64,000 nt of DNA from Halorhabdus sp. BNX81 (GTDB lineage Archaea; Halobacteriota; Halobacteria; Halobacteriales; Haloarculaceae), in assembly GCF_029229925.1 (NCBI RefSeq), contig NZ_CP107254.1, positions 2,728,001 through 2,792,000 on the forward strand, in the 5' to 3' direction. The position numbers and the translations under genes were made by a program. The notes under the pieces are model-generated. The model saw nothing but the letters and a program-made list of their open reading frames with translations, searched no databases and was not told the origin of the DNA. Shown here one piece after another: positions 1,235 to 62,125 of the stretch (the stretch's first letter is position 1; each line of letters starts with the position of its first letter).

Positions 1235-1825
1235 TCACGCTCCTTCTTCGAGTCGCCGGTACCGGGTCTCGAAGCGATCCAGACAGGACGGACAACAGAA
1301 GTGATAGACATCGCCGTCGATCCGTGCCGTCTCTCCCTCGCTGTCGACCGTGTTCCCACACTCCGCACAGGTGAGTGCGAATTCCAACCCCTCGATCGAC
1401 GGTGTCCACTCGACATCGTCGACCAGGGTGACGGAATACCCCGCAACGTCGACGTCAGCGAGCAATCCAGCGACCCACGAACGGACGTTTTGGGCCTCGG
1501 CGCGCGCGTAAAACCAGACGTCAGCCTCCGCAGTGACGAAAACGTGTTCGATCCCATCCGCGTCACGGACACGTTCCCGAACCGTCTCAACAGAGTTCCC
1601 GGAGAGTTCGACCTGCACCAATACGGGGACGCCAGCACGAAGTTGCGTCCGATCGACATCGATCGTGAACCGCTGAATAACGCCCGCTTCCCGTAAGCGC
1701 GTGACCCGATCGGAGACTGCCGGTCCGGACAACTCGACTGCTTCACCGATATCGCTGAAGGGCCGACGAGCATCTTCGGCAAGCATCGAGAGGATCTCCA
1801 GATCGGATTCATCAAGATCGTGCAT
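1235..1825 (-). CDS. Lrp/AsnC-type transcription regulator with C-terminal TRASH metal-sensing domain
   Basis: Probable metal-responsive regulator of the adjacent copper ATPase. 196 residues. Residues 1-60 are an AsnC-type winged helix (SDLEILSMLAED, then SGPAVSDRVTRLREAG). The middle is a Lrp ligand-binding-like (RAM) fold. The C-terminus carries a TRASH/YHS zinc-type finger with paired cysteines CAECG and CCPSC. I chose MHDLDESD at 1825 as the start; a longer frame upstream would read through the tRNA-Cys gene and must be wrong. It lies 93 nt upstream of copA on the same strand. Lrp-TRASH proteins next to copper ATPases are established copper regulators in Halobacterium; the same role here is inferred from architecture and position. 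Confidence 0.9.
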   Translation of the reverse strand: MHDLDESDLEILSMLAEDARRPFSDIGEAVELSGPAVSDRVTRLREAGVIQRFTIDVDRTQLRAGVPVLVQVELSGNSVETVRERVRDADGIEHVFVTAEADVWFYARAEAQNVRSWVAGLLADVDVAGYSVTLVDDVEWTPSIEGLEFALTCAECGNTVDSEGETARIDGDVYHFCCPSCLDRFETRYRRLEEGA

Positions 1826-2001
1826 ACGCGCGCTTGTCCGCCCGCATACAAGACGGTTGCCCCAACAACTTCGAAATCCTCGGTCCGAAATCGATCTGAA
1901 GCAGGAATCCGAAACAGTATTCCACAAGCAGTATCGAATCCGAGGGAGCAACTGGATGTATTCTCTCCCCCTGAAAGTCGATTGATTCGGACAGTAAGGA
2001 G

Positions 2002-2077
2002 AGCCAAGGGCCGGATTTGAACCGGCGATGGGCGGCTCTGCAGGCCGCTGCGTTAGGCCGGACTCTGCCACCTTGGC
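2002..2077 (-). tRNA. tRNA-Cys (anticodon GCA)
   Basis: A complete cloverleaf can be folded: 7-bp acceptor stem GCCAAGG/CCTTGGC, anticodon arm GCGGC-CTGCAGA-GCCGC with anticodon GCA, and T arm GCCGG-TTCAAAT-CCGGC. No intron. The discriminator base is U and CCA is not encoded. Haloarchaeal rrn operons usually carry tRNA-Cys after 5S, which fits this position. A strong terminator and a protein gene on the opposite strand separate it from 5S here, so it probably has its own promoter. Confidence 0.97.
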
Positions 2078-2097
2078 ACAGTATTGTATCGGTGATC

Positions 2098-2251
2098 GGC
2101 CAAGTTATGGATTGTGATCCGGCCGTTTCGCCCAAACGGGCGATGGGCGGCTGTCGCACGTGATGAAAGAACGTGCGACGCTGACAGACGAACGAAGTGA
2201 GTCTGTCTGAACTGCAGGCCGCTGCGTTAGGCCGGACTCTGCCACCTTGGC
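2098..2251 (-). pseudogene. Second tRNA-Cys copy with a 59-nt insert at position 37/38 and an 18-nt insert before the T arm
   Basis: The first ~37 tRNA positions (acceptor 5' strand, D arm, 5' anticodon stem, GCA anticodon, G37) are identical to the intact tRNA-Cys. A 59-nt block (2153-2211) then interrupts the anticodon loop exactly between positions 37 and 38, the canonical archaeal intron site. The block contains a 7-bp hairpin (GACAGAC/GTCTGTC) and a 9-bp hairpin (GTCGCACGT/ACGTGCGAC). The 3' exon resumes with A-GCCGC and CCATC, is interrupted by 18 nt containing GCCC-GTTT-GGGC, then continues as GCCGG, a T loop altered from TTCAAAT to ATCACAA, an unpaired 3' T strand, and CTTGGC. The broken T arm argues for a pseudogene; an intron-bearing atypical tRNA is the alternative. 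Confidence 0.72.
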
Positions 2252-2277
2252 GCAACTTCGTCTAGTTCCAGCGATCC

Positions 2278-2288
2278 AATAAACATAG
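2278..2288 (-). promoter_or_regulatory. TATA box upstream of the degenerate tRNA-Cys
   Basis: Minus-strand CTATGTTTATTGG lies about 29 nt upstream of the first base of the tRNA-Cys-like copy, the usual archaeal spacing from TATA box to start site. This suggests the tRNA-Cys pair is transcribed independently of the rrn operon, which ends in a terminator upstream. Confidence 0.45.
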
Positions 2289-2404
2289 CGGTCTGGTCGC
2301 CACACAGTATGACGCCTCACGAATCCATTACGAATTATAATAAACCACAAGAATTGTTCAGAATATAAAAACATTCTTGCCCGTTTGTATCGTTGCTGCT
2401 CGTA

Positions 2405-2620
2405 ATGACACGGCACGATCGACCGTTCGAACTGCTCGACGCGGGGGACTGGCGACTGATCACTCTCGGCACAGGACTCGTCGTCGCGAGTCTACTAGCG
2501 GCCGGCTGGTTCCTGACCAGTGGCGACCTCCCCGGCGGGCTCGCCACACTGTTGTTGACTGTCTCGGGCGCGCTGTTTGTCGCGATCGGCACGTCGGAAT
2601 CCTCCCGACCGAGCGCCTGA
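2405..2620 (+). CDS. Small two-segment membrane protein of unknown function
   Basis: 71 residues. A short charged N-terminus (MTRHDRPFELLDAGDW) precedes two hydrophobic segments, roughly LITLGTGLVVASLLAAGWFL and ATLLLTVSGALFVAIG, and a short polar tail, so it is probably an inner-membrane hairpin. A TATA-like GAATATAAAA at 2361-2370 would start transcription shortly before the ATG. A TTG four codons upstream is an alternative start. It lies between the rRNA operon terminator and tRNA-Cys on the opposite strand. I do not recognise the family. Confidence 0.7.
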   Translation: MTRHDRPFELLDAGDWRLITLGTGLVVASLLAAGWFLTSGDLPGGLATLLLTVSGALFVAIGTSESSRPSA

Positions 2621-2689
2621 CCGTCGGCTGGATTCTCTCTGTATTGTACTGGAGCCCCGTGTAGCATTGCCACTCTCGGCAGCAGCTCC

Positions 2690-2741
2690 TTATAAAAATA
2701 CAAAAAGCCCACCCGAGAGTGTTGTCACTCTCGGATGGGCT
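2690..2741 (-). terminator. rrn operon terminator after 5S rRNA
   Basis: On the minus strand, 10 nt past the 5S 3' end, a 16-bp nearly perfect stem (2726-2741 with 2706-2721, tetraloop ACAA) is followed by TTTTT and a second U-rich stretch. This is an unusually classical intrinsic-type terminator for an archaeon and marks the end of the rRNA transcript. Confidence 0.85.
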
Positions 2742-2751
2742 GAAGTATGAA

Positions 2752-2874
2752 TGGAGGCGGCGAACCGATTTTCCCAGAGACTCTCGTACTCCAGTACTCG
2801 CCGGAACGCAGGCGGGCTTAACTTCCGTGTTCGGAATGGGTACGGGTGTTGCCCCGCCGCTATGGCCGCCTTAA
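2752..2874 (-). rRNA. rrf: 5S ribosomal RNA
   Basis: About 123 nt. Begins TTAAGGCGGCCATAGCGG and ends GTTCGCCGCCTCC, so the 5' and 3' ends pair (GGCGGC with GCCGCC). It contains the conserved CCCGTACCCATTCCGAACAC core. Ends are estimated to within a few bases. Confidence 0.96.
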
Positions 2875-2930
2875 CGCCGATCCGTGGAATCGAACCACGC
2901 GAGGCCAGCGATCGGTCGATGCAAAACCAG

Positions 2931-2946
2931 TGTACGTGCGATCCAG
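2931..2946. repeat. 23S processing stem, 3' strand
   Basis: Sixteen bases (TGTACGTGCGATCCAG on the plus strand) are the exact inverse complement of 5940-5955 on the other side of 23S. The two pair in the precursor to form the long stem that the archaeal splicing endonuclease cuts at a bulge-helix-bulge. Pairing continues with interruptions toward 23S (CCTGGACGCG side). Confidence 0.85.
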
Positions 2947-2987
2947 TTTGCGCCTGGACGCGACTACGTCGCGTTTACATGCGGTAT

Positions 2988-5899
<2,912 letters not shown>

Positions 5900-46826: not shown

Positions 46827-47027
46827 ATCCCATCTCCAACCGGTCTTCGGAGAAAAGTATCGGTTCGACACTGGGGTTGCTAGCTCGGAGTCGAATCCCG
46901 TCCAGGGTGGTTCGATCCAGCGGTGGCCCCGCCGACACCGAATGACGTGCTACTGAGGCGAAAAAGGCTCGATCGGGCCAGCTTCGGTCGGAGGGCTACA
47001 AGAGGGACGGAAGCGTACCTGGAGCTG

Positions 47028-47402
47028 ATGGCGGACTTCGAACTCACCGTCGACGATCGAACGCTCGAAGCCGAATGGCTCGACGAGAGTCCCGACCTTC
47101 GGGACGCCCTGGCTGATGCCCTGCCGGTCGAAGGCCAGGCGGCCCGGTGGGGTGACGAACTGTACTTCGACGCGAGTCTGGACGGCCAGCCGGAGACGAC
47201 GAGCGAGGAAGTGCCGGTCGGCACGATCGCCTACTGGGCAGGCGGTGAAGTGATCGCACTGTTCTGGGGGCCGACACCCGCAAGCACCGACGAGACACCG
47301 AAAGCGGCAGCCCCGGTCGCGCCACTCGCGCGGATCGAAGACGTGCGTCCGCTGGCGGATCTCGACGGGGGCGCGACGGTGCGGATCGAACCCGTGGAGT
47401 GA
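47028..47402 (+). CDS. Cyclophilin-like domain protein (TM1367 type)
   Basis: 124 residues from MADFELTV, preceded by GGAG at 47021. Fold signature: VPVGTIAYWAGGEVIALFWG, then GPTPAS, and C-terminal PLARIEDVRPLADLDGGATV. These proteins have a cyclophilin fold but usually no prolyl isomerase activity; function unknown. Upstream in-frame codons to 46923 are unlikely to be translated. Confidence 0.85.
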   Translation: MADFELTVDDRTLEAEWLDESPDLRDALADALPVEGQAARWGDELYFDASLDGQPETTSEEVPVGTIAYWAGGEVIALFWGPTPASTDETPKAAAPVAPLARIEDVRPLADLDGGATVRIEPVE

Positions 47403-47726
47403 TTAGGACGGGCGCGCCGACAAGTCGCTTGCGAGGATGAGGGCACAGCTGCGAGAACTGGACCGGAGTCGGACCCTACTCGGCCCCAGCAACGGTTGCA
47501 GCGACGACACGCCAGTCAGAAGAGCGTAAGCCCGCGTCGGGCAGACAGACGACTCGTCGGAGCAGCATCGGTCAGTATGATTCAGTCCACACGTCGCTTG
47601 GTCGACAGAGGAGAAGTGGATGCGTTTAGCTGAAATCACCATAAATCATCCATCGAAATCATGGACCCTCAACTCAAAAATACTTTCCGTTAAATTTATA
47701 TATACACTATATAATCTGGAGTTGTG
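47403..47726. other. Intergenic, entry into the AT-rich accessory region
   Basis: No gene. Composition drops from GC-rich to strongly AT-rich after ~47630, and the last 35 nt (ATTTATATATACACTATATA, 47694-47713) contain overlapping TATA elements for the subtilase gene. Confidence 0.6.
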
Positions 47727-50700
47727 ATGAGAATTATTGAAAGAAATGGAAATTATAGTGGAATGAAGTACAAGCTGCAAGGACAACGAAAGAGTTCAGT
47801 TCTGACTGCTGCTCTCCTCGGAGCGATCCTGATTCTACTGGTATTGTCAGCCACCGGTGCTGCGTCAGCGAGCACTGCCGTGGAAAATTTGTCGGATCCA
47901 GCAGTGAATACGGGACTACAGTCTACGGCAACGGAAAACAACCAGACTTCAGTCGAGTATGTCACTCTCATCACTGGCGATACAGTGGCCATTGTCGACA
48001 GTGCTAACGGGACACAATATCGTTTCCTCGGCAATACGAACGGCACGATCTACGAGACGGATACCAGCGTCTATGTAGTCCCCGACGGCGTCAACCGTTC
48101 ACGGTTCGATCGGACGCTTTTCAACGTTGACCTCCTTCGCCAGCAAAACCTCACTGATCGAGAGAGCGGATCACTGCCGATCATCGTCAAGTGGACCAGT
48201 GACGGTCAAAGCCGCCATAGTGGTCGGCGGCTACTCCGTCGATCGGGCAGTCGTACGACCCATAATCTGGATATTATAAACAGTACGTCTATCACTATCC
48301 CCAAGGCGCAGGCGACAGAGGTGTACCAACGCCTCAAAACAAGCGATCGGATTGCGCACGTGTATTATAACGCAAAAGTCCAGGCCACAGCAGCACCCAG
48401 CAGAACGGCGATCGATGCCCAGATTGCACGGAATCGATACAACGTCACAGGAGAAGGGCTAACCGTCGCAGTTCTGGACTCCGGCGTTAACGAATCCCAT
48501 CCGGACATCAATGGTTCGGAAATTGCCGAGAAGGATTTCACTGGAGAGGGGACAACTGTTGACCTCGCCCGGCATGGTACCGCCGTTGCCGGGTTGATTA
48601 CTGGCGATGGAACAGCCTCAAACGATACGTACGTCGGCGTTGCCCCCAACACGAATATCGTTGATGCACGCGTACTCGATCGGTTTGGGGACGGAAGCGT
48701 TGCTAACGTCATCGCCGGCATCGAATACGCTCTCGAACGAGATGTAGACGCCATTTCGATGAGCCTCGGACACCCGGCGACCAGCACTCGCCAGAACGAC
48801 CTATTCCGAGAAAGTATCGCCAGGGCATCACAGCAGGACGTTCTGGTAGTTACTTCGTCCGGGAAACAGCCCGGATATGGATCGATCACCTCACCCGGAA
48901 CACTCGGCGAAGTGTTGACGGTCGGTTCGAGTATCGGCGACAAACAGCTTGCTCAGTATACCCCGCAAGGCCCGACACCGCACGGGAAGTACGTTAAGCC
49001 GAACGTTGTTGCTCCAGGATCAAGCGTCCGTGCTCCTGGTACCGACGGCGGATACCGGACGTCGAAGGGGACATCCTTTGCAACACCGCTGGTCACTGGG
49101 ACTGGCGTGCTGGTCCGACAGGCACATCCCGGATGGAGTGACGAGCGGATCAAACATGCGATCACATCAACCGCGGATCCGTTCTCAGGTGCCGACGTGT
49201 ACACGCAAGGGGCGGGCATCGTGAATGCCTCGGCAGCGATCGATACACAGGTGCTTGTCGAACCAGCTACGATAAACTTTGACACCGTGACAGTTGGTTC
49301 GAGTGAATCCCGGACATTCACGGCCACAAATCTCGGAAACACATCACGGAAAATGAATATCTCCGCAGAGGTTCGCTCCGTCGAATCAGGTACTCCGGAT
49401 GACATCTCGCTCAACCGGACACAGCTACATTTAGAGCCTGCCGAATCAGCGACTGTTCGAGTCACAGTGCGTCCGACTGACGAAGTCTCGGTACCACATT
49501 CCGGACGGATCACAGTCGGGAACAAGACAGCGATCTTCGGATACACTCCTTCGCGAACGATTACAGTCAAAAAGCGGGGGTTCGGATCGAAGAACAACGA
49601 CACAGTCGCAGTAGTGAATACCGACACCGACCGCGTGTACGGCCCCCGTGAAATCGGTGGATCGACAACCACATTCTCCGTTTCGAAACCCGGAACGTAC
49701 GTTGCGGTCTCGACGAGCCGGCATAATGGCCAGCCAGTTGTCACAGCGAACGAAACGACCGTACAGGGGGAGGCGACGATCATCCTCGACGAACACCGGA
49801 CAGTGCGACGAAGCATCGCAACGTCATCGCTGCCGGAGCCCGCGTCAGCATTACACAACCGGACAGTGGCCCTAAACGCCACCGTCGATGGCGCACCGTA
49901 CGACGTGCGACTGGTCGCCAACGACGCCGGAACTGGAACGGTGCGTGTGAGTCCGACCGAGCGGATGACCTACGCAGTTCGGCGAGTGATCACAGTCTCA
50001 CCCGAGGCCAGGACGTTCGATACGCCGACGATCTACCACCTGAAACACGTCTCCGAGACCATCGAAGATTCTCACAGGCACGACACGGTCAACGTGGAGA
50101 ACCTTGCGACTCAACACGTCTCCTATTACCGTGGTCGACCGAACGAGACGTATTCGGCAACGCTGGCGGCTGATGAGTTCGACGACGTCTCGCTCGCGCA
50201 GGCATATACAACCGGAGGGCTCGCCGATCGTCACGAGCAGACGATTCGCGTATCACCGAGTATCGTCCAATATCACGATTCGGTTGCATTCGGCCAGTCC
50301 GGATACGTCAGGTGGACGGCAACGGGACAGGCCTTCGTCCGATCTCTCGAAGGCGGCGAAGCGATCCGAACAGCTGTCAAGAAACAGCCCTATCGGTCGA
50401 TGCTCAAGTCGTGGTCCCTCTCCGACCGTTATTTCGAGGCGGCAATATTCCCGACGGTCGGCCAGCCACCACGTGGGTACGTGATGAGTGATAGCCCCCG
50501 CGAACAGTACACGGTCTGGATTAACGGGAACCGGACAAAAACGACAACTCGAAACTATGCGACGGCATATCTTTCGGCCCGACAGCAAGGGATCGACAGG
50601 GTGCGGCTTCGCGTACAGGACCAACATGGAATGTCGCCGCTGTCGAACGACACCGTGACGACGTTCGCGGCGTCGACGAACGGGAGCGATCGGCGACCGC

Positions 50701-52265
50701 CGGCCGTTCCGGACGTGATCTTCGAAAGCCAGAGTGCGACCAACGTCGTACCGAACGGCAATCTGAGCGTGACGATTCGAACGAGCGATGCCGGCAGTGG
50801 CCTCAGAAACGCCACGCTCTACGTCGGGACGCGTAACACCACAGGTTCACCGACCGGTACGCCCTTCGAGAGTGGAACCGAATGGCAGGAAGTCCCACTA
50901 CACCGGACGGCTAGTGGCGAGTATACAGCGACGTTGCCGCTGGAGAAGTACCGCGGCAGCCTCAGCGTCGCCGTGCGAGCGATCGACAAGGCGGGGAACT
51001 ACGTCGAGACGACGGCGACGGACGCGGTCGTCGTCGGGAGTCGTCGTCCAACACCCGTTGTGACGGCAAATCGGACATTGATCACCGTGAACAGCACTGT
51101 TCGGCTTGACGCGAGCAATTCATTCGACGATCTCGGAATCGATAGCTATCAGTGGGATATTGACGGTGATGGAACCACTGACCGAACGACGACCAGGCCG
51201 ACGACCACTGTGAGCTACGCCGAGCCGGGTGCGGTCAATCCAACCCTGACCGTCAGCGACCTGCAAGGCTTCTCGGCGAGTACGGCCATCGCGACGATCG
51301 CGGTTGCGGAGCGTTTACCTGCGGAGCAGTTGCCAAAGCAGGTTCGAACTGACATCCACGATGCAGTTATCACTGACAGTGTCGGGACAGCCGGCGTGGC
51401 GTACGGTCGCCGGTCAGTCAAAGGTGATTCTGTGTTGTACGTCACAGGCAGAAGTAATGGCGGAATCGACGCTGGCCCGAACAGTACCGTCGTCGTGAAC
51501 GGCACGTCCGTCAGTGGGAGGACGGCTGGGCACAACGTGATCGCACGGAACGGAACGTTCCGGGGTGGAATCAATGCCTCTGGGACCGTCGTCGTTGCAA
51601 GTAATCAAACAATCGTATCCGGAAATCTGCAGTGCGAGGAGTTAATCCGAGTTCTGCCCGGTGCGACACTACGCGTGCAGGGGACGATCGAAGCACAACG
51701 CGTCGACGTCGCAGAAAGTGGAAGTGTCGTAGCTGACGCGGGGATAGATGCACAGGTTGATGCTGAATCCGACGCGAACGAGACTGATACGGCCGACGCA
51801 CGTGCACTCGTGGATGCACGCCTTTCGGACGTACTATCGTCGAACGCGAGCGTCCAGCCCGACATCGAGCATGCGGTCGAGGGCGGGCAGGTCGAAATAG
51901 CACGGAAGGCACAGCCCGGCAGAACGGTCGCCGCCGAGTCAGTCGTGTTTGTGGATGGCAAGACGAACGGCGGGATCAGCGCCGGCTCGAACAGTACCCT
52001 CGTCGTGAACGGGACTGCAGTCAATGGGAAGGTGAACGGTCACAACGTGATCGCCCGGAACGCGACGTTCCACGGCGGAATCAACGCATCCGGGACGGTG
52101 GTTGTTACGGGCAACCGAACAGTCGTGTCCGGCGATATGCAGAGTGCCGAAACAGTCAGAGTGTTGCCAGGTGCGACACTGCAGGTCAGCGGGACAATCG
52201 ACGCACAGAAAGTCATCGCCGAGAAGGGGGCCGTGTCGGTCGCAAAGACCAGTAACGCCAGCTAA
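47727..52265 (+). CDS. Large exported subtilisin-like protein with PKD and bactofilin-like repeats
   Basis: 1512 residues, leaderless ATG behind a TATA cluster. Signal segment VLTAALLGAILILLVLSATG. Peptidase S8 domain ~235-500: Asp in AVLDSGVNESHPD (~251), His in LARHGTAVAG (~282), Ser in KGTSFATPLV (~450). The oxyanion-hole motif, normally AAGN, reads SSGK (VVTSSGKQPGYG), so the asparagine is lysine. Then beta-sandwich domains with many N-x-S/T sequons, a PKD-like domain (~1107-1190, DASNSFDDLGIDSYQWDIDG), and two C-terminal bactofilin-like repeats (~1229-1338 and ~1403-1505), each with GHNVIARN and GINASGTVVV. No anchor. The first gene of the accessory region. Confidence 0.88.
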   Translation: MRIIERNGNYSGMKYKLQGQRKSSVLTAALLGAILILLVLSATGAASASTAVENLSDPAVNTGLQSTATENNQTSVEYVTLITGDTVAIVDSANGTQYRFLGNTNGTIYETDTSVYVVPDGVNRSRFDRTLFNVDLLRQQNLTDRESGSLPIIVKWTSDGQSRHSGRRLLRRSGSRTTHNLDIINSTSITIPKAQATEVYQRLKTSDRIAHVYYNAKVQATAAPSRTAIDAQIARNRYNVTGEGLTVAVLDSGVNESHPDINGSEIAEKDFTGEGTTVDLARHGTAVAGLITGDGTASNDTYVGVAPNTNIVDARVLDRFGDGSVANVIAGIEYALERDVDAISMSLGHPATSTRQNDLFRESIARASQQDVLVVTSSGKQPGYGSITSPGTLGEVLTVGSSIGDKQLAQYTPQGPTPHGKYVKPNVVAPGSSVRAPGTDGGYRTSKGTSFATPLVTGTGVLVRQAHPGWSDERIKHAITSTADPFSGADVYTQGAGIVNASAAIDTQVLVEPATINFDTVTVGSSESRTFTATNLGNTSRKMNISAEVRSVESGTPDDISLNRTQLHLEPAESATVRVTVRPTDEVSVPHSGRITVGNKTAIFGYTPSRTITVKKRGFGSKNNDTVAVVNTDTDRVYGPREIGGSTTTFSVSKPGTYVAVSTSRHNGQPVVTANETTVQGEATIILDEHRTVRRSIATSSLPEPASALHNRTVALNATVDGAPYDVRLVANDAGTGTVRVSPTERMTYAVRRVITVSPEARTFDTPTIYHLKHVSETIEDSHRHDTVNVENLATQHVSYYRGRPNETYSATLAADEFDDVSLAQAYTTGGLADRHEQTIRVSPSIVQYHDSVAFGQSGYVRWTATGQAFVRSLEGGEAIRTAVKKQPYRSMLKSWSLSDRYFEAAIFPTVGQPPRGYVMSDSPREQYTVWINGNRTKTTTRNYATAYLSARQQGIDRVRLRVQDQHGMSPLSNDTVTTFAASTNGSDRRPPAVPDVIFESQSATNVVPNGNLSVTIRTSDAGSGLRNATLYVGTRNTTGSPTGTPFESGTEWQEVPLHRTASGEYTATLPLEKYRGSLSVAVRAIDKAGNYVETTATDAVVVGSRRPTPVVTANRTLITVNSTVRLDASNSFDDLGIDSYQWDIDGDGTTDRTTTRPTTTVSYAEPGAVNPTLTVSDLQGFSASTAIATIAVAERLPAEQLPKQVRTDIHDAVITDSVGTAGVAYGRRSVKGDSVLYVTGRSNGGIDAGPNSTVVVNGTSVSGRTAGHNVIARNGTFRGGINASGTVVVASNQTIVSGNLQCEELIRVLPGATLRVQGTIEAQRVDVAESGSVVADAGIDAQVDAESDANETDTADARALVDARLSDVLSSNASVQPDIEHAVEGGQVEIARKAQPGRTVAAESVVFVDGKTNGGISAGSNSTLVVNGTAVNGKVNGHNVIARNATFHGGINASGTVVVTGNRTVVSGDMQSAETVRVLPGATLQVSGTIDAQKVIAEKGAVSVAKTSNAS

Positions 52266-52488
52266 TCCGTCGGTCACGTTCGAACGTGACCCACGTGACT
52301 GAGACGGACACTCATATATCGATTAGGAAAATAGTATAGATGGTACATTCATCCGCACTATATAATATAATATATTAATAAGTAATATCTATTATAGTTA
52401 TATCCAAATTAGAAATTATGTAAGTTATAATGGTCTAACCAGATTGTAGATTGAAAAGACTTATTGTGTTGTTATGATATCACCCTGT
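52266..52488. other. AT-rich intergenic promoter region
   Basis: After the subtilase stop the sequence becomes extremely AT-rich (52370-52430). TATA-like ACTTATTG (52459-52466) is at leaderless distance from the ATG at 52489. No gene. Confidence 0.55.
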
Positions 52489-53352
52489 ATGGTTGAAAAC
52501 CATGAAAAGAGTCGGAGATCGTTTTTGAAAACAACTGGGATAGTCGCCGCTGGGGTCGTTGGGGTCGGAAGCAGTACCACCGTATCTGCAAGACGAAGAC
52601 GACAGCATGCAGGAAAAAAGGAAGAAGATGACAAGCAACAGAATTCATTCACACCGTCCGGCAAGAATTCTGATTTGCATCAGAAAATGAGTGAGGCATT
52701 TCGTAAAGAAGGATCATCTGGAGTTGATTCAATATTGTCCGAATCGGGTCGGGGGTATTCCCATATTTCATCTTCAGCAGAAGATACATCGGAGAAAGAT
52801 GATGAACTTGAAACAATGGACAGGTATATCGAAGATGATTCAGAGATAAGTACAGCTACTGTCGCTATCCCTAATACAGACCAAATCAGTGTGCATGTTA
52901 TGGTGAATCTGAGAAATGTCGAATCATCTTGGGGATCGGCCACATATGCGGAGGATGCAATCGGTGTGGGTTTCAATCCCGACCACTGGTCGTCAGTCGG
53001 TGAGCCAGACATCTACGCTGAAGATCCTCATTCGGGGGACTTCTTTTCAGGAACTTTGGATGGCGATGGTGGTGGTGTTATCGGAGTGGTCGATCTGGAA
53101 GCCGACCCAGTAGTTCTTCCGAACGAGTCATATGTTGAGCTCTATGCTGAGTTAGAGAATTTAGATGGGGTTGCAGGAACAGTATTAGGATACTATGAAC
53201 ATTGCGAAAAGCTTACTACATGGACGGGGAAAGGAGTGATCGATAGTGTCGAAATTATTACAGATAAGCTTGGTATAAATATAGACACCGGCGCGTCTAC
53301 TTTATGGGATTTTGCTGATCCCCATGATCCAGAAGACGCTCTAAAAAAGTAA
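52489..53352 (+). CDS. Tat-exported protein of unknown function
   Basis: 287 residues. N-terminus has a twin-arginine motif SRRSFLKTTGIVAAGVVGVG and cleavage region TVSA, with no lipobox, so it is secreted folded. A basic stretch ARRRRQHAGKK follows the cleavage region. The rest is acidic and serine-rich, then a beta-rich core (ATVAIPNTDQISVHVMVNL, then NPDHWSSVGEPDIYAEDP). No known family recognised. Base composition is visibly lower in GC than the housekeeping half. The next gene, a small membrane protein, starts 18 nt after its stop: probably one operon. Confidence 0.82.
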   Translation: MVENHEKSRRSFLKTTGIVAAGVVGVGSSTTVSARRRRQHAGKKEEDDKQQNSFTPSGKNSDLHQKMSEAFRKEGSSGVDSILSESGRGYSHISSSAEDTSEKDDELETMDRYIEDDSEISTATVAIPNTDQISVHVMVNLRNVESSWGSATYAEDAIGVGFNPDHWSSVGEPDIYAEDPHSGDFFSGTLDGDGGGVIGVVDLEADPVVLPNESYVELYAELENLDGVAGTVLGYYEHCEKLTTWTGKGVIDSVEIITDKLGINIDTGASTLWDFADPHDPEDALKK

Positions 53353-53370: not shown

Positions 53371-53589
53371 ATGGATACTGAAGCATTCATTTTCAATTGC
53401 GGCGAGCTCTGGTTTTTAGCTCTAATATACATTGAAGTCTATCCACATCCAGGTGACGTTCCATCTTTGGGGGCCTTCATTACTTTGATAGCCCTCGGAC
53501 TGATCTATGCGATTCCGCTATATTTCGCGTGGAGGATCGTCTCTGAGCTATACGATACCGCTTTATCTCTCGTGGGAGATCGTCTCTGA
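53371..53589 (+). CDS. Small membrane protein paired with the Tat protein
   Basis: 72 residues, two transmembrane segments (CGELWFLALIYIEVYP, then GAFITLIALGLIYAIPLYFAW). 18 nt downstream of the Tat protein gene with no promoter of its own. Could be an accessory or protective partner of the exported protein; this is only a positional guess. Confidence 0.68.
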   Translation: MDTEAFIFNCGELWFLALIYIEVYPHPGDVPSLGAFITLIALGLIYAIPLYFAWRIVSELYDTALSLVGDRL

Positions 53590-53804
53590 GCTATGATTTT
53601 CGATAATTTGGTCTTGCTCGGCAACGAACGGGATTCAATGTCAGGAATGCTCACCGGCTACTCAGCGATACCACAGCCGATCGGGAGCAAAAGCGTGCGG
53701 CCCGCGAATCGCTGAAAGATATCTGGACGGATGTCGAGATCAAATCCCAGACCAAATCTTGGCGGGCGATCCAGAGACAACGCGAGAATGGGGGGAGAGA
53801 ACAT
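53590..53804. other. Gene debris
   Basis: A frame with protein-like character (HRLLSDTTADREQKRAARES, then LKDIWTDVEIKSQ) runs through 53632-53780 on the plus strand without a start, which suggests the tail of a deleted gene. The source is not recognised. Confidence 0.35.
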
Positions 53805-53933
53805 TCACGCGGTCGGTGCGCTGACGACGACGTTCTCCTTGGTCTCGATCAGGGCCGACAATGTCTCGGCCTGCATCGCGTTGAAGGTCTCGAAGGGGAA
53901 CGCGCCGGCGAAGGCACTCTTCGGGAAGGACAT
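53805..53933 (-). pseudogene. hel308 N-terminal remnant
   Basis: Minus-strand frame beginning MSFPKSAFAGAFPFETF and continuing NAMQAETLSALIETKENVVV-SAPTA, then a stop. It aligns with the start of the intact hel308 product (FPFESFNAMQAETLPALLER, then DENVVVSAPTASGKT) and ends inside Walker A. Only ~42 codons remain. Confidence 0.85.
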
Positions 53934-54042
53934 CTCCAGCGGAGAGACGAACTGGCGGTGGTTCTTGATGTAGATATTGTCGGTGATCGCCACGACGGTC
54001 GAATAGAAGGGTGGCTGGCAAAAGCTATTCGGACCAAAATAT

Positions 54043-54090
54043 ACCCACCGTATCTGTAAGACGAAGACGACAGTATGCGGGAAAATCGGA
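54043..54090 (+). repeat. Duplicated piece of the Tat-protein gene
   Basis: About 45 bp almost identical to 52575-52619, i.e. codons just after the signal peptide of the Tat protein gene (shared CCACCGTATCTG and AGACGAAGACGACAG). A leftover of a second copy of that gene, next to the hel308 remnant. Confidence 0.8.
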
Positions 54091-54127
54091 TGCAACATAT
54101 AATTAGTCAGTAGAAAAAGAAGAAAGT

Positions 54128-54343
54128 ATGGCTGGAGTACAGATCGTTGGCGAACTGGGCTTGCCAAGCGTGGCGTGGATTCCAAATACAAGGACAGCCG
54201 GGCCCAGGTTTCAGAGTTTCAGTTCGAGTGGAGATGCCTCAATTACGTTCGGTAGCGAAACCAAAGTGTGGCGAGCTGAAACACACGCAACAGAGGAGGA
54301 GATGGATGATGGTGACTCGTGGGTTGACCCAGACCCGGTTTGA
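54128..54343 (+). CDS. Possible small protein upstream of the Tat lipoprotein
   Basis: 71 residues (MAGVQIVGELGLPSVAWIPN... to a highly acidic tail DGDSWVDPDPV). A TATA-like ACATATAATT (54095-54104) is ~28 nt upstream and the next gene begins 16 nt after the stop, so it may be real; no family and no membrane segment. Confidence 0.42.
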   Translation: MAGVQIVGELGLPSVAWIPNTRTAGPRFQSFSSSGDASITFGSETKVWRAETHATEEEMDDGDSWVDPDPV

Positions 54344-54359
54344 ATAACAAGTTCTCAGA

Positions 54360-54950
54360 ATGGAAACAAAACAAGATGAAACGAACCGAAGGCGTTTTCT
54401 CGGCGTGGTAGCGACAGCACTCGGATCGACGGCCGGTTGTGCAGAAATCAGTCGCCTTCTCGGGGAGCCAAGGGCGCGAAAACGAACGAATCTGAGCTGG
54501 CGCGCATTTGAACCGTACGTGAAGGGGCAACCGAACCTCGATGCGGCACCGGCCGCGGACGGCTGGCTCGCGACCGATCCGGACTGGATCGATCGGAACG
54601 TTAGATGGCCAAATCTGACGGGGCACGAACAGGATAGTATGCGCCAATTGCAACAGCGGTTCGAGCCGGGCGAATACTTCTTCACGGCGATCGTCGGTGC
54701 GCTCCCGTTTGACTACGCTCTGGGAAAATACCGAGATGTCAGAATCGACGGGCAAGCGATACACGTCTACGCAAAAGGTGCCTCAACATCTCCCGATGGT
54801 AATTCGGATCCGGACCCCAGCGAACCGGAGTCAATCTACGACTACACGTTCACACTCTGGAAACTTCGGGACAATCTGAGCGCGCCGACCGACATCGACT
54901 TCAACTTCCGACGTGGTGAATTGCCGACCGACACCTGGTCGAACAGGTAG
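54360..54950 (+). CDS. Tat-exported lipoprotein, unknown function
   Basis: 196 residues. TNRRRFLGVVATALGSTAGC: twin-arginine motif and lipobox (Cys ~27). Mature part polar with aromatic-rich stretches (LSWRAFEPYVKGQPNLD, then NLTGHEQDSMRQLQQRFEPG) and a proline/aspartate-rich linker PDGNSDPDPSEPES. No family recognised. It lies exactly between the two hel308 remnants: its stop is 8 nt from the remnant of the hel308 C-terminus. Confidence 0.82.
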   Translation: METKQDETNRRRFLGVVATALGSTAGCAEISRLLGEPRARKRTNLSWRAFEPYVKGQPNLDAAPAADGWLATDPDWIDRNVRWPNLTGHEQDSMRQLQQRFEPGEYFFTAIVGALPFDYALGKYRDVRIDGQAIHVYAKGASTSPDGNSDPDPSEPESIYDYTFTLWKLRDNLSAPTDIDFNFRRGELPTDTWSNR

Positions 54951-54958
54951 GCTCAGAT

Positions 54959-55075
54959 TCACTCCACCGCGACCAACCGGCCCTCCACCACCGGCCCAAT
55001 GGCACGTCCGGGAACGCCACCTCGATCGCGAACTCTAGTTCCTCGGCATCGCCGCCGGCGGGCAGCGTCAGGCCT
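54959..55075 (-). pseudogene. hel308 C-terminal remnant
   Basis: Minus-strand frame GGDAEELEFAIEVAFPDVP followed, after a one-base shift, by PVVEGRLVAVE and a stop. The intact hel308 product ends GGDADELTFRVEVAFPELP then PVVETRTVEVV and stop. About 39 codons left. With the N-terminal remnant it shows that a second hel308 copy once stood here. Confidence 0.82.
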
Positions 55076-55159
55076 ATTCCTGAATTCCAAAGAGGAGGTA
55101 CTTGAAAAATCTCAATACCCGGTCGAATGGGGGCTAGATCACCGCAGTAGTAGTCCGTG

Positions 55160-55360
55160 TCACCCCGAGGACTCAGGCTCAGCCTCTTCAAGCATGGAGT
55201 ACAGCGACGAAAGAACACTTCCGAGTAGCGCGATTCCGCCGATGAATAACGGAAGTTTTGCCTGCTGTTCCGCGATGGGGTCAACTCCCCCTGTTTCAAT
55301 TTGCACTACCCACACCATCAATAGGATACTGAATAGGAGCGCATCTCTTGACAGTGACAT
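55160..55360 (-). CDS. Small membrane protein
   Basis: 66 residues from MSLSRDALLF (55360), two transmembrane segments (LLFSILLMVWVVQI and LPLFIGGIALLGSVLSSLY) and an acidic tail. A strong TATA (TTTTATAAATATG, 55378-55391 on the minus strand) is ~25 nt upstream, so it is leaderless. Unknown function. It lies next to, and divergent from, an exported protein. Confidence 0.72.
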   Translation of the reverse strand: MSLSRDALLFSILLMVWVVQIETGGVDPIAEQQAKLPLFIGGIALLGSVLSSLYSMLEEAEPESSG

Positions 55361-55635
55361 GTGTGAATTGGTTGTAGGCATATTTATAAAAGATTTCGTT
55401 CTACTGATACCATCGGCGACGAGAACGCCACCTGGCTGGACATCCCACCGGGTGAAAATGCCCACGCGAAATGTGCACTTGCATCCGTCGTTAGGCAAGA
55501 GAAGAGCCACACCACTGCGGCGGCTTGGCGAAAACGGGTTGTCCCGAGCATGGGGCCACTCAGCCGACACGAACATGCGGATGTGATAGCAGGATAGAAA
55601 GACTGATATGATAATCGGATTGGAGATTGTATATA

Positions 55636-56856
55636 ATGCGTCGACGGAAGTTCCTCTCGCTGGCGTCTACGTCGTTCGCACTGGCAAGCGTTCCTGTATT
55701 ACGCAGTGTGATGGGACCGACAACCGTCAGCGAGACCGTCTTCGGCGCGAGTGAATCTCCCCTCTCAGAGGCGGACATCAAAACGGCCAATCGACGGGCA
55801 CTGAAGAATACAGACGAGATCTCGGCCCAGTCGAACGGTGGAGATGCTGCTGCGATGATGCCGTCGCCGGTGACCGGAGAGAACGAAGCCGTCGTCGGCT
55901 ATCGAGTTGCAGTCGATAGTAGCGGGCATGTCGATTACCTACTCGGGAGTGTCAGTACCGGCCGTGGCGACGAACGACGACGATCCCACGACACGACGAG
56001 GGGACGCCAACGCCGTGACAGCGAGGCCACAACCCGCGCGGCCAGTGACGAAAGTCCCGCTCAAAGCGCCGTCGAAAGGGTACACGAAGGATTGAAAGGC
56101 GCAACTGATCGAACGGTTTCAGCACGATCGGGCGGGTGCTTCGAGCCAAGCGGCCTGTTCTCGGATGCCACGAATCTCGAAGCGTGGACCGACCAGTGGG
56201 GGTGTCCTGATACGAGTGGTCGCAGAGTCACGATCGGAGAGCCCGCAGGACGGGATCAGTTTACCAACAAGGATGTGGAACGGGCGTACGGACAACTGTT
56301 CGTCGATGAGTATGTCTTCCGGCAGAAACGAGACGGCGAGCAACTCATCAGCACGCTGAGCGAGTACGAACTGCGGCCAGGCGAAGCCATAGATGAGGAC
56401 GGTTTCAAGAACTACAAGCTCGAGGGATTTGAGCCCACCCATGACTACGGAGTGGCCACCAGAAACGAAGTTCGCCAGATCGAGGGGGCACCAACCTACA
56501 AAAACGAAGCCCCTTCCGACATTACGGGGTTCTCGATGGATGCCGGTGTCACGCCAGTCAGTATTGATCTGAGCTGGAGCAACGAGCCCGACGAAATTCA
56601 GCTGATCAAGCACGGCCATCCGGCTGATGCTATCAGATGGGAACACACGTGGGCGAAGACACAAGCAACACCGACTGTGTTCGCGGCGAGCGCAGCCAGA
56701 GTCGCTGACGAGTTTGCGGACGGTGAGAAAGTGCTCCGGACCGAAGCAGAAATGGACGTGATAGATCCAACGCCGTGGTATTTGCCGTTACCAGGGAGCC
56801 ACGGATCGCTTTTGACCGCCGTGGAATATTATGTGGGAGAAGGAGAGAGTGCGTAG
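55636..56856 (+). CDS. Tat-exported protein of unknown function
   Basis: 406 residues from MRRRKFLSLASTSFALASVP (twin-arginine motif, no lipobox). A TATA-like TGATATGATAATC (55602-55614) is ~28 nt upstream. Middle region (~100-150) is Arg/Ser/Asp-rich and low-complexity; the C-terminal part (~180-400) looks folded: NLEAWTDQWGCPDTSGRRVT, then SIDLSWSNEPDEIQLIKHGH and WYLPLPGSHGSLLTAVEYY. Family not recognised. Confidence 0.82.
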   Translation: MRRRKFLSLASTSFALASVPVLRSVMGPTTVSETVFGASESPLSEADIKTANRRALKNTDEISAQSNGGDAAAMMPSPVTGENEAVVGYRVAVDSSGHVDYLLGSVSTGRGDERRRSHDTTRGRQRRDSEATTRAASDESPAQSAVERVHEGLKGATDRTVSARSGGCFEPSGLFSDATNLEAWTDQWGCPDTSGRRVTIGEPAGRDQFTNKDVERAYGQLFVDEYVFRQKRDGEQLISTLSEYELRPGEAIDEDGFKNYKLEGFEPTHDYGVATRNEVRQIEGAPTYKNEAPSDITGFSMDAGVTPVSIDLSWSNEPDEIQLIKHGHPADAIRWEHTWAKTQATPTVFAASAARVADEFADGEKVLRTEAEMDVIDPTPWYLPLPGSHGSLLTAVEYYVGEGESA

Positions 56857-57030
56857 ATGAGTGGTGTGGGCCGAATGATCTGAACGGAGCATTCCACCTG
56901 ATGTAGGAGGACACAGTGACAAACGATCACCTCGGCACCATGTTCCCCAGTACCATACTGCTGGATTGCGATGGAACTGGCGATATGATTTGTACCCATA
57001 TACCACCCGGAGTTTCGACAGGGTCGTCGC
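56857..57030. other. Intergenic, nothing recognised
   Basis: Convergent 3' ends of the Tat protein gene and hel308; no gene and no clear terminator. Confidence 0.5.
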
Positions 57031-59433
57031 TCAGACAACTTCGACCGTCCGCGTCTCGACGACCGGCTGAATCGGGAGTTCCGGGAACGCCACTTCGACG
57101 CGGAAAGTCAGTTCGTCGGCGTCACCCCCGAAGACGCCGACCGGAAGCGTCGCCTCGCCAAGGTAGGTCTCACTCGCAGTCATCTCGACGCCGTTGACGG
57201 TCACGCGGATGCCAGCCTGCCCGCCGCCGGCCGTGTTCCGGATCGTCACCTCGCACATCTCGTTCTCGCCGTGGGGGATCGACTCGGGGAAGTCACCCCA
57301 GTCGATCTCGACCACCGGCAGGTCACGTGCACTCTCGAGGACGCGCTCGGCGACGCCCTCGCTCAGGTCCGCGTCGACCAGGCCCTCGACACCCGCCGCG
57401 ACCACGTCGGCTGGCGTCGCCAGTCCCTCGGCGGCGAGTTTGCTCGCCCGACCGGACCCGACGCCGTCGATGGCCGTCAACCCGACCGCGTCGTCGCTGA
57501 TGCCGTGTTCGACGCGGGCCTCGATCCGACGGGCGAGATTCGCCGCGCGTGCGCCGTCGAACTCCGCAAGAAAGGCCTGGAGTGCAGCCAGGAGGCGATT
57601 GGCGTTCTGGCGGATCACCCAGGCGTCGCTCTGAAGTTCGGTCGGCGTCGTTCCCCGCATGCTGGCCTCCAGGATCGCCAGCACCTTCCGCTGACCCGAA
57701 TCGAGATCGACGTCGACGACGGTCTCCTGATCGGTTCGGTCGTCGCCCAGGACCGCGTGGACAGCGTCGCGTTCGTCGGTTCGGGCGCTGACGCTGTCAA
57801 ACTCGCCGGCCCCCGCGACGGCCGAGAGTATGTCTCGCTCGGTGAGTTCGGCCTCGCCCGCGGCGTCGGCGAGATCGCCGAAGTGCCGGGCAGTATCCAG
57901 CCGGAGGTAAAAACGCGAGGCGAGGCGGCCAAGGGCGGTCGCCGAGACCCGGAGATCGTCGTCCATCTCGACGAAGCCCCGATCAACCAGCCCACGCATC
58001 GTGGAACTGGCCTGCTCCCGAAGCGATCCCGCGGCGTCGTAGCGATCTGGGGCATTGTTCGCGCGCACGTAGTAGAACGTCGTCTCCAGCCAGTCGAGCA
58101 CGTCGTCGAGATCCCGGATCGTCCCCATCGCGATCTCGGCGTTGAGGTGGGCATCCAGGCTCTCGGCCAGCCGTGACTCGATCTCCTTCCCGTCTCGGAG
58201 GAGTCGCCGGTACTTGTCGGCCTCGCTGCGGTCGGTGATCACCCAGGCGTACCCGTGTTCGTCGTAGCCCGGCCGGCCCGCCCGCCCGAGCATCTGGAGG
58301 ACGTCCAGCGGACTCATGTCGACCTCGCCCTCCAGGGGATCGTGGAGTTTGGTATCACGGATCACGACACACCGGGCGGGGAGGTTGACGCCCCAGGCGA
58401 GCGTCGAGGTGGAGAAGAGGACCGCGAGTTTTCCCTCGCGGAACCACTGCTCGACCAGATTTTTGTCCTCCCGGGAGAGCCCGGCGTGGTGGAACCCGAC
58501 GCCGTCGAGCACCGACTGTCGGAGGGTGTTGTTGTTGAGTTCGGAAGCGTCGTTGTGAAAGTCGTAGTCGCCCCGGGCACCGACCGGAATGTCCCGTTCG
58601 GCGAGTTCGTCGCGGGTCTTCTTGGCCGCCTGGACCGTGTCCTGCCGGGAGGAGACGAACACGAGTGACTGCCCGTCCTCCCGGAGGTGGGGTTCGACGA
58701 GATCGAGGGCTCGGTAGAGGCGACGGTACTTGTCGGCGAAGGCGTTCTCGCCGTGGCTGTAGGTCTTGACGTCGGCGTTGAGGGGGACCGGTCGGTAGTC
58801 CTCGCCGAAGGCGAAGGTGCTCTCGGCGGGGGCCTCAAGCCACTCGGCGACGTCCCCGATGTTGGTCATCGTCGCCGAGAGGGCGACGATCCGGGGGTCA
58901 CAGAGGCGTCGCAGTCTGGAAATGGTGACCTCCAGCACGCTCCCGCGGCGGTCGGCGTCGAGTAAGTGGACCTCGTCGATGACCACGCAGTCGACGTCGG
59001 TGACGAAGCTGTACCGGCTGGAGTCGTGCTTGCGAGTCGCCGAGTCGGCCTTCTCGGGGGTCATGACGAGAACGTCCGCACGCTCTGCGCGGCGGGGGTT
59101 GAGGTCGCGTTCGCCGGTGACGACGTACACCGAGTAGCCCAGTTCCTCAAAGCGATCCCACTCGCTCTCCTTCTCGTTGGTGAGTGCCCGGAGCGGCGCG
59201 AGGAAGAGCGCCGTCCCGCCCCGATCGATGGTCTTCGCGATGGCGACCTCCGCGACCGCGGTCTTGCCGCTGGCGGTCGGCGCGCTCACGACGACGTTCT
59301 CGTCGCGCTCGAGCAGCGCCGGCAGGGTCTCGGCCTGCATCGCGTTGAACGACTCGAAGGGAAACGCCGGCGCGAAGTCGGGCAATACGTCGGCGACGGG
59401 CACCGCTTTTGGGCTCTCGACTGGCTCTGCCAC
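57031..59433 (-). CDS. hel308: Hel308 DNA helicase (superfamily 2)
   Basis: Unwinds lagging strands at stalled forks; 3'-5' helicase. 800 residues from a GTG start (MAEPVESPKAVPVADVLP); a longer frame overlaps the Usp gene antisense and is rejected. Motifs: Q-like FNAMQAETLPALL, Walker A SAPTASGKTAV, DEVH box CVVIDEVHLLD, SAT in ALSATMTN, motif VI QMLGRAGRPGYD. Winged helix and ratchet domains follow, then a helix-hairpin-helix (GLTAIDGVGSGRASKLAAEG). An extra ~100-residue beta-sandwich (VTIRNTAGGGQAGIRVTVNG...) ends the protein. Two remnants of a second copy lie at 53.8 and 55.0 kb. Confidence 0.94.
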   Translation of the reverse strand: MAEPVESPKAVPVADVLPDFAPAFPFESFNAMQAETLPALLERDENVVVSAPTASGKTAVAEVAIAKTIDRGGTALFLAPLRALTNEKESEWDRFEELGYSVYVVTGERDLNPRRAERADVLVMTPEKADSATRKHDSSRYSFVTDVDCVVIDEVHLLDADRRGSVLEVTISRLRRLCDPRIVALSATMTNIGDVAEWLEAPAESTFAFGEDYRPVPLNADVKTYSHGENAFADKYRRLYRALDLVEPHLREDGQSLVFVSSRQDTVQAAKKTRDELAERDIPVGARGDYDFHNDASELNNNTLRQSVLDGVGFHHAGLSREDKNLVEQWFREGKLAVLFSTSTLAWGVNLPARCVVIRDTKLHDPLEGEVDMSPLDVLQMLGRAGRPGYDEHGYAWVITDRSEADKYRRLLRDGKEIESRLAESLDAHLNAEIAMGTIRDLDDVLDWLETTFYYVRANNAPDRYDAAGSLREQASSTMRGLVDRGFVEMDDDLRVSATALGRLASRFYLRLDTARHFGDLADAAGEAELTERDILSAVAGAGEFDSVSARTDERDAVHAVLGDDRTDQETVVDVDLDSGQRKVLAILEASMRGTTPTELQSDAWVIRQNANRLLAALQAFLAEFDGARAANLARRIEARVEHGISDDAVGLTAIDGVGSGRASKLAAEGLATPADVVAAGVEGLVDADLSEGVAERVLESARDLPVVEIDWGDFPESIPHGENEMCEVTIRNTAGGGQAGIRVTVNGVEMTASETYLGEATLPVGVFGGDADELTFRVEVAFPELPIQPVVETRTVEVV

Positions 59434-60618: not shown

Positions 60619-61155
60619 ATGAACCGACGGACGTTTCTCGCAACGCTGGGCGGGACTGCCGCGGTCGGTGGCGCGGGCTATATCGCCATAGATCCGTTCC
60701 AGCGAGAACACAGGCTCTGGTGCGTTCGTCTCAATAATACGTGGTTTGGAGAAGCCGAAGTCGATGCGCGAGTGAAACGTAATGGCACAGTTGTCCACGA
60801 AGATAGTTACGAAATCCCAGGAATGGACGCAAGTCCGAGGGGGGACGAGGAGCCGCTGTATTGGGTCGACGTGAACAGGAGATTACTCTACGGGTGGAAT
60901 ACCGATCCGGCAGTGTTCACTGTCGAAAGTCGCAGGTCCGACCGGGACAAGTGGGTGAGTCAATCATTCGACCATGTTGAAGCCACCAACATCCATGCAA
61001 CAGTCGATATATATGGTAGCTCGGGAGTCGCCGGGACCCGCGCACACGAATTCGGATCGTTAGCGCAAGCGAAAGGATTCGTCGAAGAAGTCAAACCAGC
61101 CAATAGAGATCAGTCGGCCGGGAACACCACTGAGAGGGCAAGCCCACAGAAATGA
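60619..61155 (+). CDS. Tat-exported small protein, copy 1 of a tandem family
   Basis: 178 residues. Twin-arginine signal MNRRTFLATLGGTAAVGGAG, then DPFQREHRLWCVRLNNTW. Mature beta-rich core: VDARVKRNGTVVHEDSYEIP, LLYGWNTDPAVFTVES. Ends NTTERASPQK. Overlaps copy 2 by ATGA and repeats its sequence at 533-bp spacing. TATA-like ATATTTATTAG (60573-60583) ~40 nt upstream. An unknown family, secreted or membrane-attached through the signal. Confidence 0.88.
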   Translation: MNRRTFLATLGGTAAVGGAGYIAIDPFQREHRLWCVRLNNTWFGEAEVDARVKRNGTVVHEDSYEIPGMDASPRGDEEPLYWVDVNRRLLYGWNTDPAVFTVESRRSDRDKWVSQSFDHVEATNIHATVDIYGSSGVAGTRAHEFGSLAQAKGFVEEVKPANRDQSAGNTTERASPQK

Positions 61156-61688
61156 ACCGACGTCGGTTTCTCGCAACGCTGGGCGGGACCGCCGCGGTCG
61201 GTGGCGCGGGCTATATTGCCTTGGATCCATTCCAGCGGGAACACCGGCTCTGGTTCGTTCGTCTCAACAGATCGTGGCCTGGAGAAGTCGAAGTCGATGC
61301 CCGGGTAAAACGCAATGGCACAGTCGTTTGCGAAGATAGCTACGAAATCCCAGGAATGAACGCAAGTGAAAGTGTGAGCGAGAAGCCAGTGATTTTTGTC
61401 GACGTAAACAGTAGATTACTTTACGGCTGGGATACCGACCCAGCGGCGTTCACTGTCGAAAGTCGCATCTCCGGCCGGGACGAATGGGTGAGTCAATCCT
61501 TCGGTCACGTTGAAGCCAATGCCAGCATCGGAGCAACGGTTGAAATCCTAGGCCGCGGAGTCGCTGGTGTCCAAGCACACGAATTTGGATCCGCAACGCA
61601 GGCGAAACAGTTCCTCGAAGAAGTCAAACCAGCCAATAGAGATCAGTCGTCCGGGAACACCACTGAGAAGGCAAGCCCACAGAAATGA
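61152..61688 (+). CDS. Tat-exported small protein, copy 2
   Basis: 178 residues, close copy of the preceding gene (same signal, REHRLWFVRLNRSW, VKRNGTVVCEDSYEIPGM, LLYGWDTDPAAFTVES). Same length as copy 1, start to start 533 bp. Copies 2 and 3 share more (RSWPGE, SRISGRD, NASIGATV/NTSIGATV) than either shares with copy 1. Translationally coupled on both sides by ATGA. Confidence 0.9.
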   Translation: MNRRRFLATLGGTAAVGGAGYIALDPFQREHRLWFVRLNRSWPGEVEVDARVKRNGTVVCEDSYEIPGMNASESVSEKPVIFVDVNSRLLYGWDTDPAAFTVESRISGRDEWVSQSFGHVEANASIGATVEILGRGVAGVQAHEFGSATQAKQFLEEVKPANRDQSSGNTTEKASPQK

Positions 61689-62125
61689 ACCGACGTCGGT
61701 TTCTCGCAACGCTGGGCGGGACCGCCGCGGTCGGTGGCGCGGGCTATATTGCCTTGGATCCATTCCAGCGGGAACACCGGCTCTGGTTCGTTCGTCTCAA
61801 CAGATCGTGGCCTGGGGAAGTCAAAGTCGATGCGCGAGTGAAACGCAACAACACAGTTGTCCACGAAGATAGTTACGAAATCCCAGGGATGGACGCGAGT
61901 GAAACGCTGGACGAGAAGCCATTAGTTTGGGTTGACGTGAACAGTAGATTACTCTACGGTTGGGATACCGACCTAGCGGCGTTCACTGTCGAAAGTCGCA
62001 TCTCCGGTCGGGACGACTGGGTGAGTCAATCCTTCGGTCACGTTGAAGCCAATACCAGCATCGGAGCAACGGTCGATATCCTCAGTACCTCACAAAGCCG
62101 GTTAGTTAGAACGTCTGCTTGCTGA
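61685..62125 (+). pseudogene. Tat-exported small protein, copy 3, truncated by the ISH3 element
   Basis: Matches copies 1-2 for 133 codons (to ATVDIL), then runs into the left end of the transposon at 62083 and stops 14 codons later (SRLVRTSAC). It lacks the last ~45 residues; the missing 3' end is not found beyond the transposon. Confidence 0.9.

Follow-up and report, generated by a model that had tools for sequence, protein, structure and literature searches.

The window analysed here is a stretch of 64,000 nucleotides (positions 2728001-2792000) from the 2,828,981-bp chromosome of Halorhabdus sp. BNX81 (G000), which was compared with six other Halorhabdus genomes (G001 to G006). It contains an intact hel308 gene and, downstream of it, a series of exported-protein genes interspersed with fragments of hel308 and of other genes. 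Copies of a gene end lying beside an intact gene are called scars below, the two hel308 pieces being the N-scar and the C-scar. From hel308 toward its flank gene the features are as follows, in window coordinates:

57031-59433, minus: intact hel308 with a GTG start (Pfam DEAD, Helicase_C and Sec63; aligned to six congeners)
55130-57023, plus: Tat409 insert directly behind hel308 (93.7% blastn identity to G006; absent from this site in G004 and G001)
55627-56856, plus: Tat409 gene, inside the Tat409 insert
55160-55576, minus: small ORF, inside the Tat409 insert
55064-55110, minus: non-hel308 DNA preceding the C-scar and common to the G002 C-scar (by alignment)
about 54960-55063, minus: hel308 C-scar, the last ~39 codons to the stop
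54360-54950, plus: ORF of a Tat lipoprotein, 196 aa
54045-54085, plus: Tat292-like fragment, codons ~35-48, lacking the signal part (41 bp, 93%)
53901-54033, minus: 5' end of a DUF5814 gene with its leader (91% to the DUF5814 gene of G000; 84% over 135 bp to G005)
53809-53912, minus: hel308 N-scar, codons ~19-55, ending within Walker A
53620-53788, plus: piece of an exported-protein gene of the Tat477/482 type (76% identity to the gene in G001)
53371-53589, plus: 72-aa hydrophobic ORF in a block shared with G005
52474-53352, plus: exported protein Tat292 (G005 retains the last codons only)
47724-52265, plus: subtilase carrying PKD repeats and bactofilin-like ones (inside the 7.7 kb that G006 lacks)
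47019-47414, plus: flank gene, the ancestral downstream neighbor of hel308, which it adjoins in G004 and G001

An earlier note on this DNA had placed an intact hel308 near 57 kb and, before it, an N-terminal and a C-terminal hel308 piece, both on the minus strand, with a small frame and a Tat lipoprotein between them. The intact gene, the order of the fragments and their strand are as it stated. The N piece likewise has the place, strand and Walker A end given for it, but it is not the N-terminus of the protein, since it comprises codons ~19-55 behind the 5' end of a DUF5814 gene. The lipoprotein ORF is present, but the 128-aa frame that contains the N piece is no gene. The C piece does hold ~39 C-terminal codons, but it lacks 9 nt and its reading frame is shifted by 1 nt, and its TGA lies 9 nt from the lipoprotein stop. 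A tblastn search of Hel308, proposed as a check, recovers the N piece clearly (E 2e-10), but the C piece is weak in the whole-genome search (E 0.04) and becomes clear only at the DNA level, against hel308 of G005 (78% over 100 bp, E 7e-16).

The lipoprotein has zero Pfam matches above cutoff. In a search of 293 genomes, BNX81 included (292 others), homologues of the lipoprotein were found in 10 (nine of the 292 others), of Tat409 in 7 and of Tat292 in 16, own genome included in each count. That a Tat protein and a small membrane ORF might act as toxin and immunity protein was considered as a possibility. The subtilase (1513 aa) joins a protease to C-terminal PKD and bactofilin-like repeats, an unusual combination of protease and polymer-forming domain. 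Elsewhere in the window, at 60619-62125, a Tat-signal gene occurs three times in tandem upstream of a universal stress protein gene; it is single in G006.

Structure and relatives of the two hel308 scars

The N-scar matches the intact hel308 of its own genome at 84% DNA identity (E 1e-23) and 78% over 37 aa of protein (E 2e-10), and it is closer at the DNA level to hel308 of G001 (90%) and G005 (88%). The first ~30 codons and leader of the supposedly N-terminal frame (53901-53996, extending to 54033 in comparison with G005) match, at 91% identity, the 5' end of the DUF5814 gene that G000 carries ~24 kb from hel308; the Pfam DUF5814 match of this piece (E 5e-4) falls under the cutoff. At its downstream end the N-scar is fused to a fragment of a Tat477 gene, with hel308 'SAPTA' within Walker A followed immediately by TGA and then by the Tat477 piece. 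With a DUF5814 5' end, hel308 codons ~19-55 and a Tat477 piece joined in this way, the 128-aa frame is a mosaic.

Exactly the same junction between scar and Tat477 occurs in G005, where the scar lies upstream of the intact hel308. There the junction bears a longer hel308 5' end, with leader, and it belongs to a 598-bp block common to G000 at 90.6% identity. A complete Tat477 gene precedes the scar in G005, and G001 has a Tat gene of this type upstream of hel308. Tat477/482 proteins are without Pfam match; their histidine motifs are reminiscent of zinc-dependent phospholipase C or P1 nuclease. In G001 (locus L048, reversed orientation, 1798-5299) IS200/IS605-type TnpA and TnpB genes lie between the Tat482 gene and hel308.

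The C-scar has its own counterpart in G002, located 2.6 kb behind the G002 hel308 and after a different Tat gene; the two C-scars have ~45 nt of preceding non-hel308 DNA in common, and neither adjoins the ancestral flank. Where scar and intact copy of G002 differ, the sites divide 15:13 (scar:intact) against G003 and 6:18 to 6:21 against G004, G005 and G001. For the G000 C-scar the division is 16:13 against G003 and 10:20 against G004, to whose end the scar is thus not closer than the intact copy. Both C-scars lean to a G003-type hel308 end, which over so short a stretch is only suggestive.

Contents of the slot downstream of hel308 vary among the congeners. G004 and G001 have nothing in it, hel308 lying directly on the flank gene. 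In G006 Tat409 is the sole occupant; the slot measures 9.6 kb in G000 and 7.3 kb in G002, where it contains a different Tat gene. G005 and G003 have short junctions from hel308 to the gene after the flank gene. The comparison of relatives therefore bears out the proposal that exported-protein genes have been exchanged repeatedly beside hel308, different ones occupying a single slot, with hel308 scars in G000 and G002. Divergence per site of the hel308 tail exceeds that of the body 2.4-fold between G000 and G004 and 1.9-fold between G006 and G004, the value for G000 and G001 being 1.0 (Fisher p 8e-5, with the break picked post hoc). This excess in the lineage carrying Tat409 indicates a recombination break inside hel308, at a position chosen from the data; either side of the break may be the replaced one.

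A survey of 92 hel308 loci across haloarchaea (some species represented twice, the window's own locus not included) found same-strand hel308 fragments of at least 37 aa and at least 60% identity solely in Halorhabdus, namely in G005 and in G002, the latter listed twice (L050/L118). The many short or low-identity matches in the other haloarchaea were taken as chance or distant paralogues, and a search of a plasmid collection gave zero hel308 matches. A hel308-specific hot spot across haloarchaea was considered and rejected.

Duplicated gene ends at other loci

In a sample of 40 stretches of 20 kb from G000, the 3' end of an intact gene is repeated downstream on the same strand at six loci:

L187: 321-aa frame, 72-bp scar; between them a frame resembling the HTH-nucleotidyltransferase of L315 and a HEPN-like ORF (by eye)
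L191: 379-aa gene, 39-bp scar; between them an RHH protein (just under cutoff) and a RelE-like ORF (by eye)
L203: DEAD-box helicase, scars of 88 bp and again 65 bp; between them HepT (Pfam) and a Tat-type protein (signal by eye)
L315 (case D): 795-aa gene, 54-bp scar; between them an HTH-nucleotidyltransferase (Pfam)
L316: SSF symporter, 196-bp scar; between them a Tat-type protein (signal by eye)
L327 (case F): gene taken to be msrA, 116-bp scar; between them a DUF7387 protein, presumably HicB-like

Toxin-antitoxin (TA)-like genes thus occupy the interval between gene and scar at L187, L191, L203, L315 and L327. The automated scan, run with a tolerance of 60 bp, returned six downstream 3'-end copies at five of these loci; L327 was added by eye, its ORF being uncalled there, and matches inside L310 and L311, which are tandem arrays, were not counted. 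L316 also contains a TenA-like piece that forms a further scar-like repeat, and L328 is ambiguous. For several scars the end falls no more than a few bp from the stop codon. The same scan detected zero 3'-end scars in 18 stretches of G006 and zero in 20 of G005, so the rate of scarring is uneven; in other haloarchaea it detected two (L073 and L103) in 1.42 Mb, made up of 82 hel308 neighborhoods with some species present twice. A 5' piece of a trkA-like gene in G005 (L309, 6342-7874) was rejected as a scar and left out of the counts, as it is the remnant of an upstream second copy, body-deleted there and complete in G000, G006 and G004.

Four loci, designated cases A, B, C and E, were compared with a relative whose site is empty; cases D and F stand outside that comparison. 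At each of the four the insert lies between long direct repeats that are single-copy in the empty site, and at each the scar runs on into the ancestral flank: in case A by comparison with G004, in B and E with G006, and in C with G003, through the G004 scar. The hel308 locus differs from these in having extra DNA between scar and flank. Scars are also present at the orthologous loci of other genomes, for case A in G006 and probably G002, for case B in G002, and for case C in G006, G004, G001 and G002.

Case B is the most direct. Its scar and flank match G006, and the last ~50 nt of the intact gene, stop codon included, differ. Judged from these alignments, it is clearly the scar that is native here, the end of the intact gene being foreign. 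In case E the foreign tract is patchy: ~5 sites in the left part favor a native scar and one favors the intact copy, the right part being identical in both copies. The 279-bp scar of case A has 15 sites for a native scar and 11 for the intact copy. Case A further comprises two inserts, a HepT insert common to G000, G006 and G002 and an additional Tat225 insert of G000, which lies on the gene side and has its own scar. A 5' counterpart is found at DUF5814 in G005 (L149, 7932-8514), where the ancestral upstream flank is followed by a 27-codon scar, an insert with a decayed small membrane-protein frame, and the intact gene.

Proposed insertion at gene ends, related systems and alternatives

The preferred explanation, with a probability of roughly two in three, is that accessory cassettes were inserted at gene ends by a homology-anchored process of the type of homology-facilitated illegitimate recombination (HFIR) or of insertion with long target duplication, and that at hel308 this took place repeatedly and with shuffling. 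Incoming DNA from a related haloarchaeon would consist of a donor copy of the end of the resident gene together with a cassette, either a Tat-exported protein or a toxin-antitoxin pair. A single crossover inside the resident gene would take in this DNA, and its far end would presumably attach at a point further along that gene end, through microhomology or some other illegitimate event. The outcome would be a resident gene that remains whole with a donor end, the cassette beside it, and the old native end left as a scar by the old flank.

The hel308 locus would have passed through multiple such rounds, in a presumed order in which the C-scar arose in a G002/G003-like lineage and the N-scar in one resembling G001/G005. 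Import within larger blocks, followed by rearrangement, seems to account for the scars, because they have junctions in common with two different species. Both would thus have reached G000 inside such blocks and then been reshuffled, yielding the DUF5814-hel308 chimera, and from their sequences the two look like separate imports. How the far end was joined, which lineages were donors and in what sequence hel308 was altered are inferences.

Related processes have been described elsewhere. HFIR was proposed to account for the way T6SS effector-immunity modules were inserted step by step in Vibrio cholerae (PMC5361080). It resembles the mechanism suggested here in having a conserved anchor on one side and a non-homologous join on the other, with older modules pushed off the anchor and remnants staying behind. 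Native recipient DNA beyond the second junction, as expected of HFIR, was found at all four loci with an empty relative and not at hel308. Unlike those of V. cholerae, these haloarchaeal loci have an unrelated housekeeping gene's end as the remnant, many different genes as anchors, and cargo that is TA-like or Tat-exported. For restriction-modification genes, insertion with long target duplication has been described (Nobusato et al. 2000, as presented in PMC1643837 and PMC3031569); it shares with the Halorhabdus loci addiction-type genes and long, variable direct repeats of the target. It differs from them in that both repeats should be the recipient's own, whereas in case B one copy is foreign and the other native, and in that the repeat here keeps a coding gene intact. 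In Haloquadratum walsbyi, deletion-coupled insertions place unrelated sequences at identical positions of collinear genomes by a mechanism that the authors call undescribed (PMC3119063). The likeness lies in haloarchaea swapping unrelated sequences at identical positions; there the insertions replace DNA, and the accessible text of that study does not mention duplication of gene ends, whereas here native ends are kept as scars.

The gene-end scars of Halorhabdus are accordingly regarded as a variant of these three processes and not as a new kind, apparently frequent in G000. Searches of open-access literature turned up no title or abstract opening on haloarchaeal gene-end scars of this kind. 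For each event the scars record the target and the native end, and at young loci the foreign tract as well, and insertion of unrelated genes at identical haloarchaeal positions becomes testable through genome comparison and simple transformation assays. Insertion of this kind would explain why TA and exported-protein genes lie just behind unbroken housekeeping genes. A broader and rather doubtful extension is that gene ends act as homology 'sockets', TA and Tat-export cassettes carrying the end of a neighbor gene as an address; with host recombination as their only means of transfer from strain to strain and species to species, they would not disrupt the gene and would accumulate on the gene side much as integron cassettes do, but with no integrase.

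One-sided homologous recombination in the gene end followed by an illegitimate second join is the simplest reading, and a single-crossover circle fits nearly as well. In such a Campbell-type event a circle bearing the cassette and one copy of the gene end would integrate by a single homologous crossover in that gene end and could pop out again by recombining gene with scar, being mobile without an integrase. It predicts the same anatomy, it accommodates the cassette and scar of case B being present in G000 and G002 and missing from the nearer G006, and it accommodates the recurrence of the left ends of scars between species. However, no circles were seen, and the left part of the scar should be donor-like, while the 72-bp scar of case B is native throughout, its informative stretch being short. 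A circle is on balance considered unlikely.

The earlier note had proposed that hel308 was once duplicated in tandem around the lipoprotein gene and that the two bodies were then lost, one C-end and one N-end surviving. Fragment order and strand fit this proposal, and deletion of the body of a tandem copy does occur in the genus, at the trkA-like gene of G005. Against it, no second full hel308 was seen in the seven Halorhabdus genomes or the 92 surveyed loci, the scars share their junctions with different genomes, in which they recur apart (the N-scar upstream in G005, the C-scar downstream in G002), and the N-scar is fused to DUF5814. As the N- and C-scars resemble different lineages, they are unlikely to derive from a single tandem pair that lost its bodies, and the tandem model is very improbable. 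Least credible of all is site-specific integration, in which an integrase or IS would insert at gene 3' ends and the repeats would be attachment sites: the proximity of several scars to stop codons and the IS200/IS605-type genes beside hel308 in G001 speak for it, but a non-exhaustive search recognized no integrase in the inserts of cases A, B, C and E, the repeats are imperfect and range from 39 to 279 bp, and the G001 elements lie on the opposite side of hel308 in a genome without scars.
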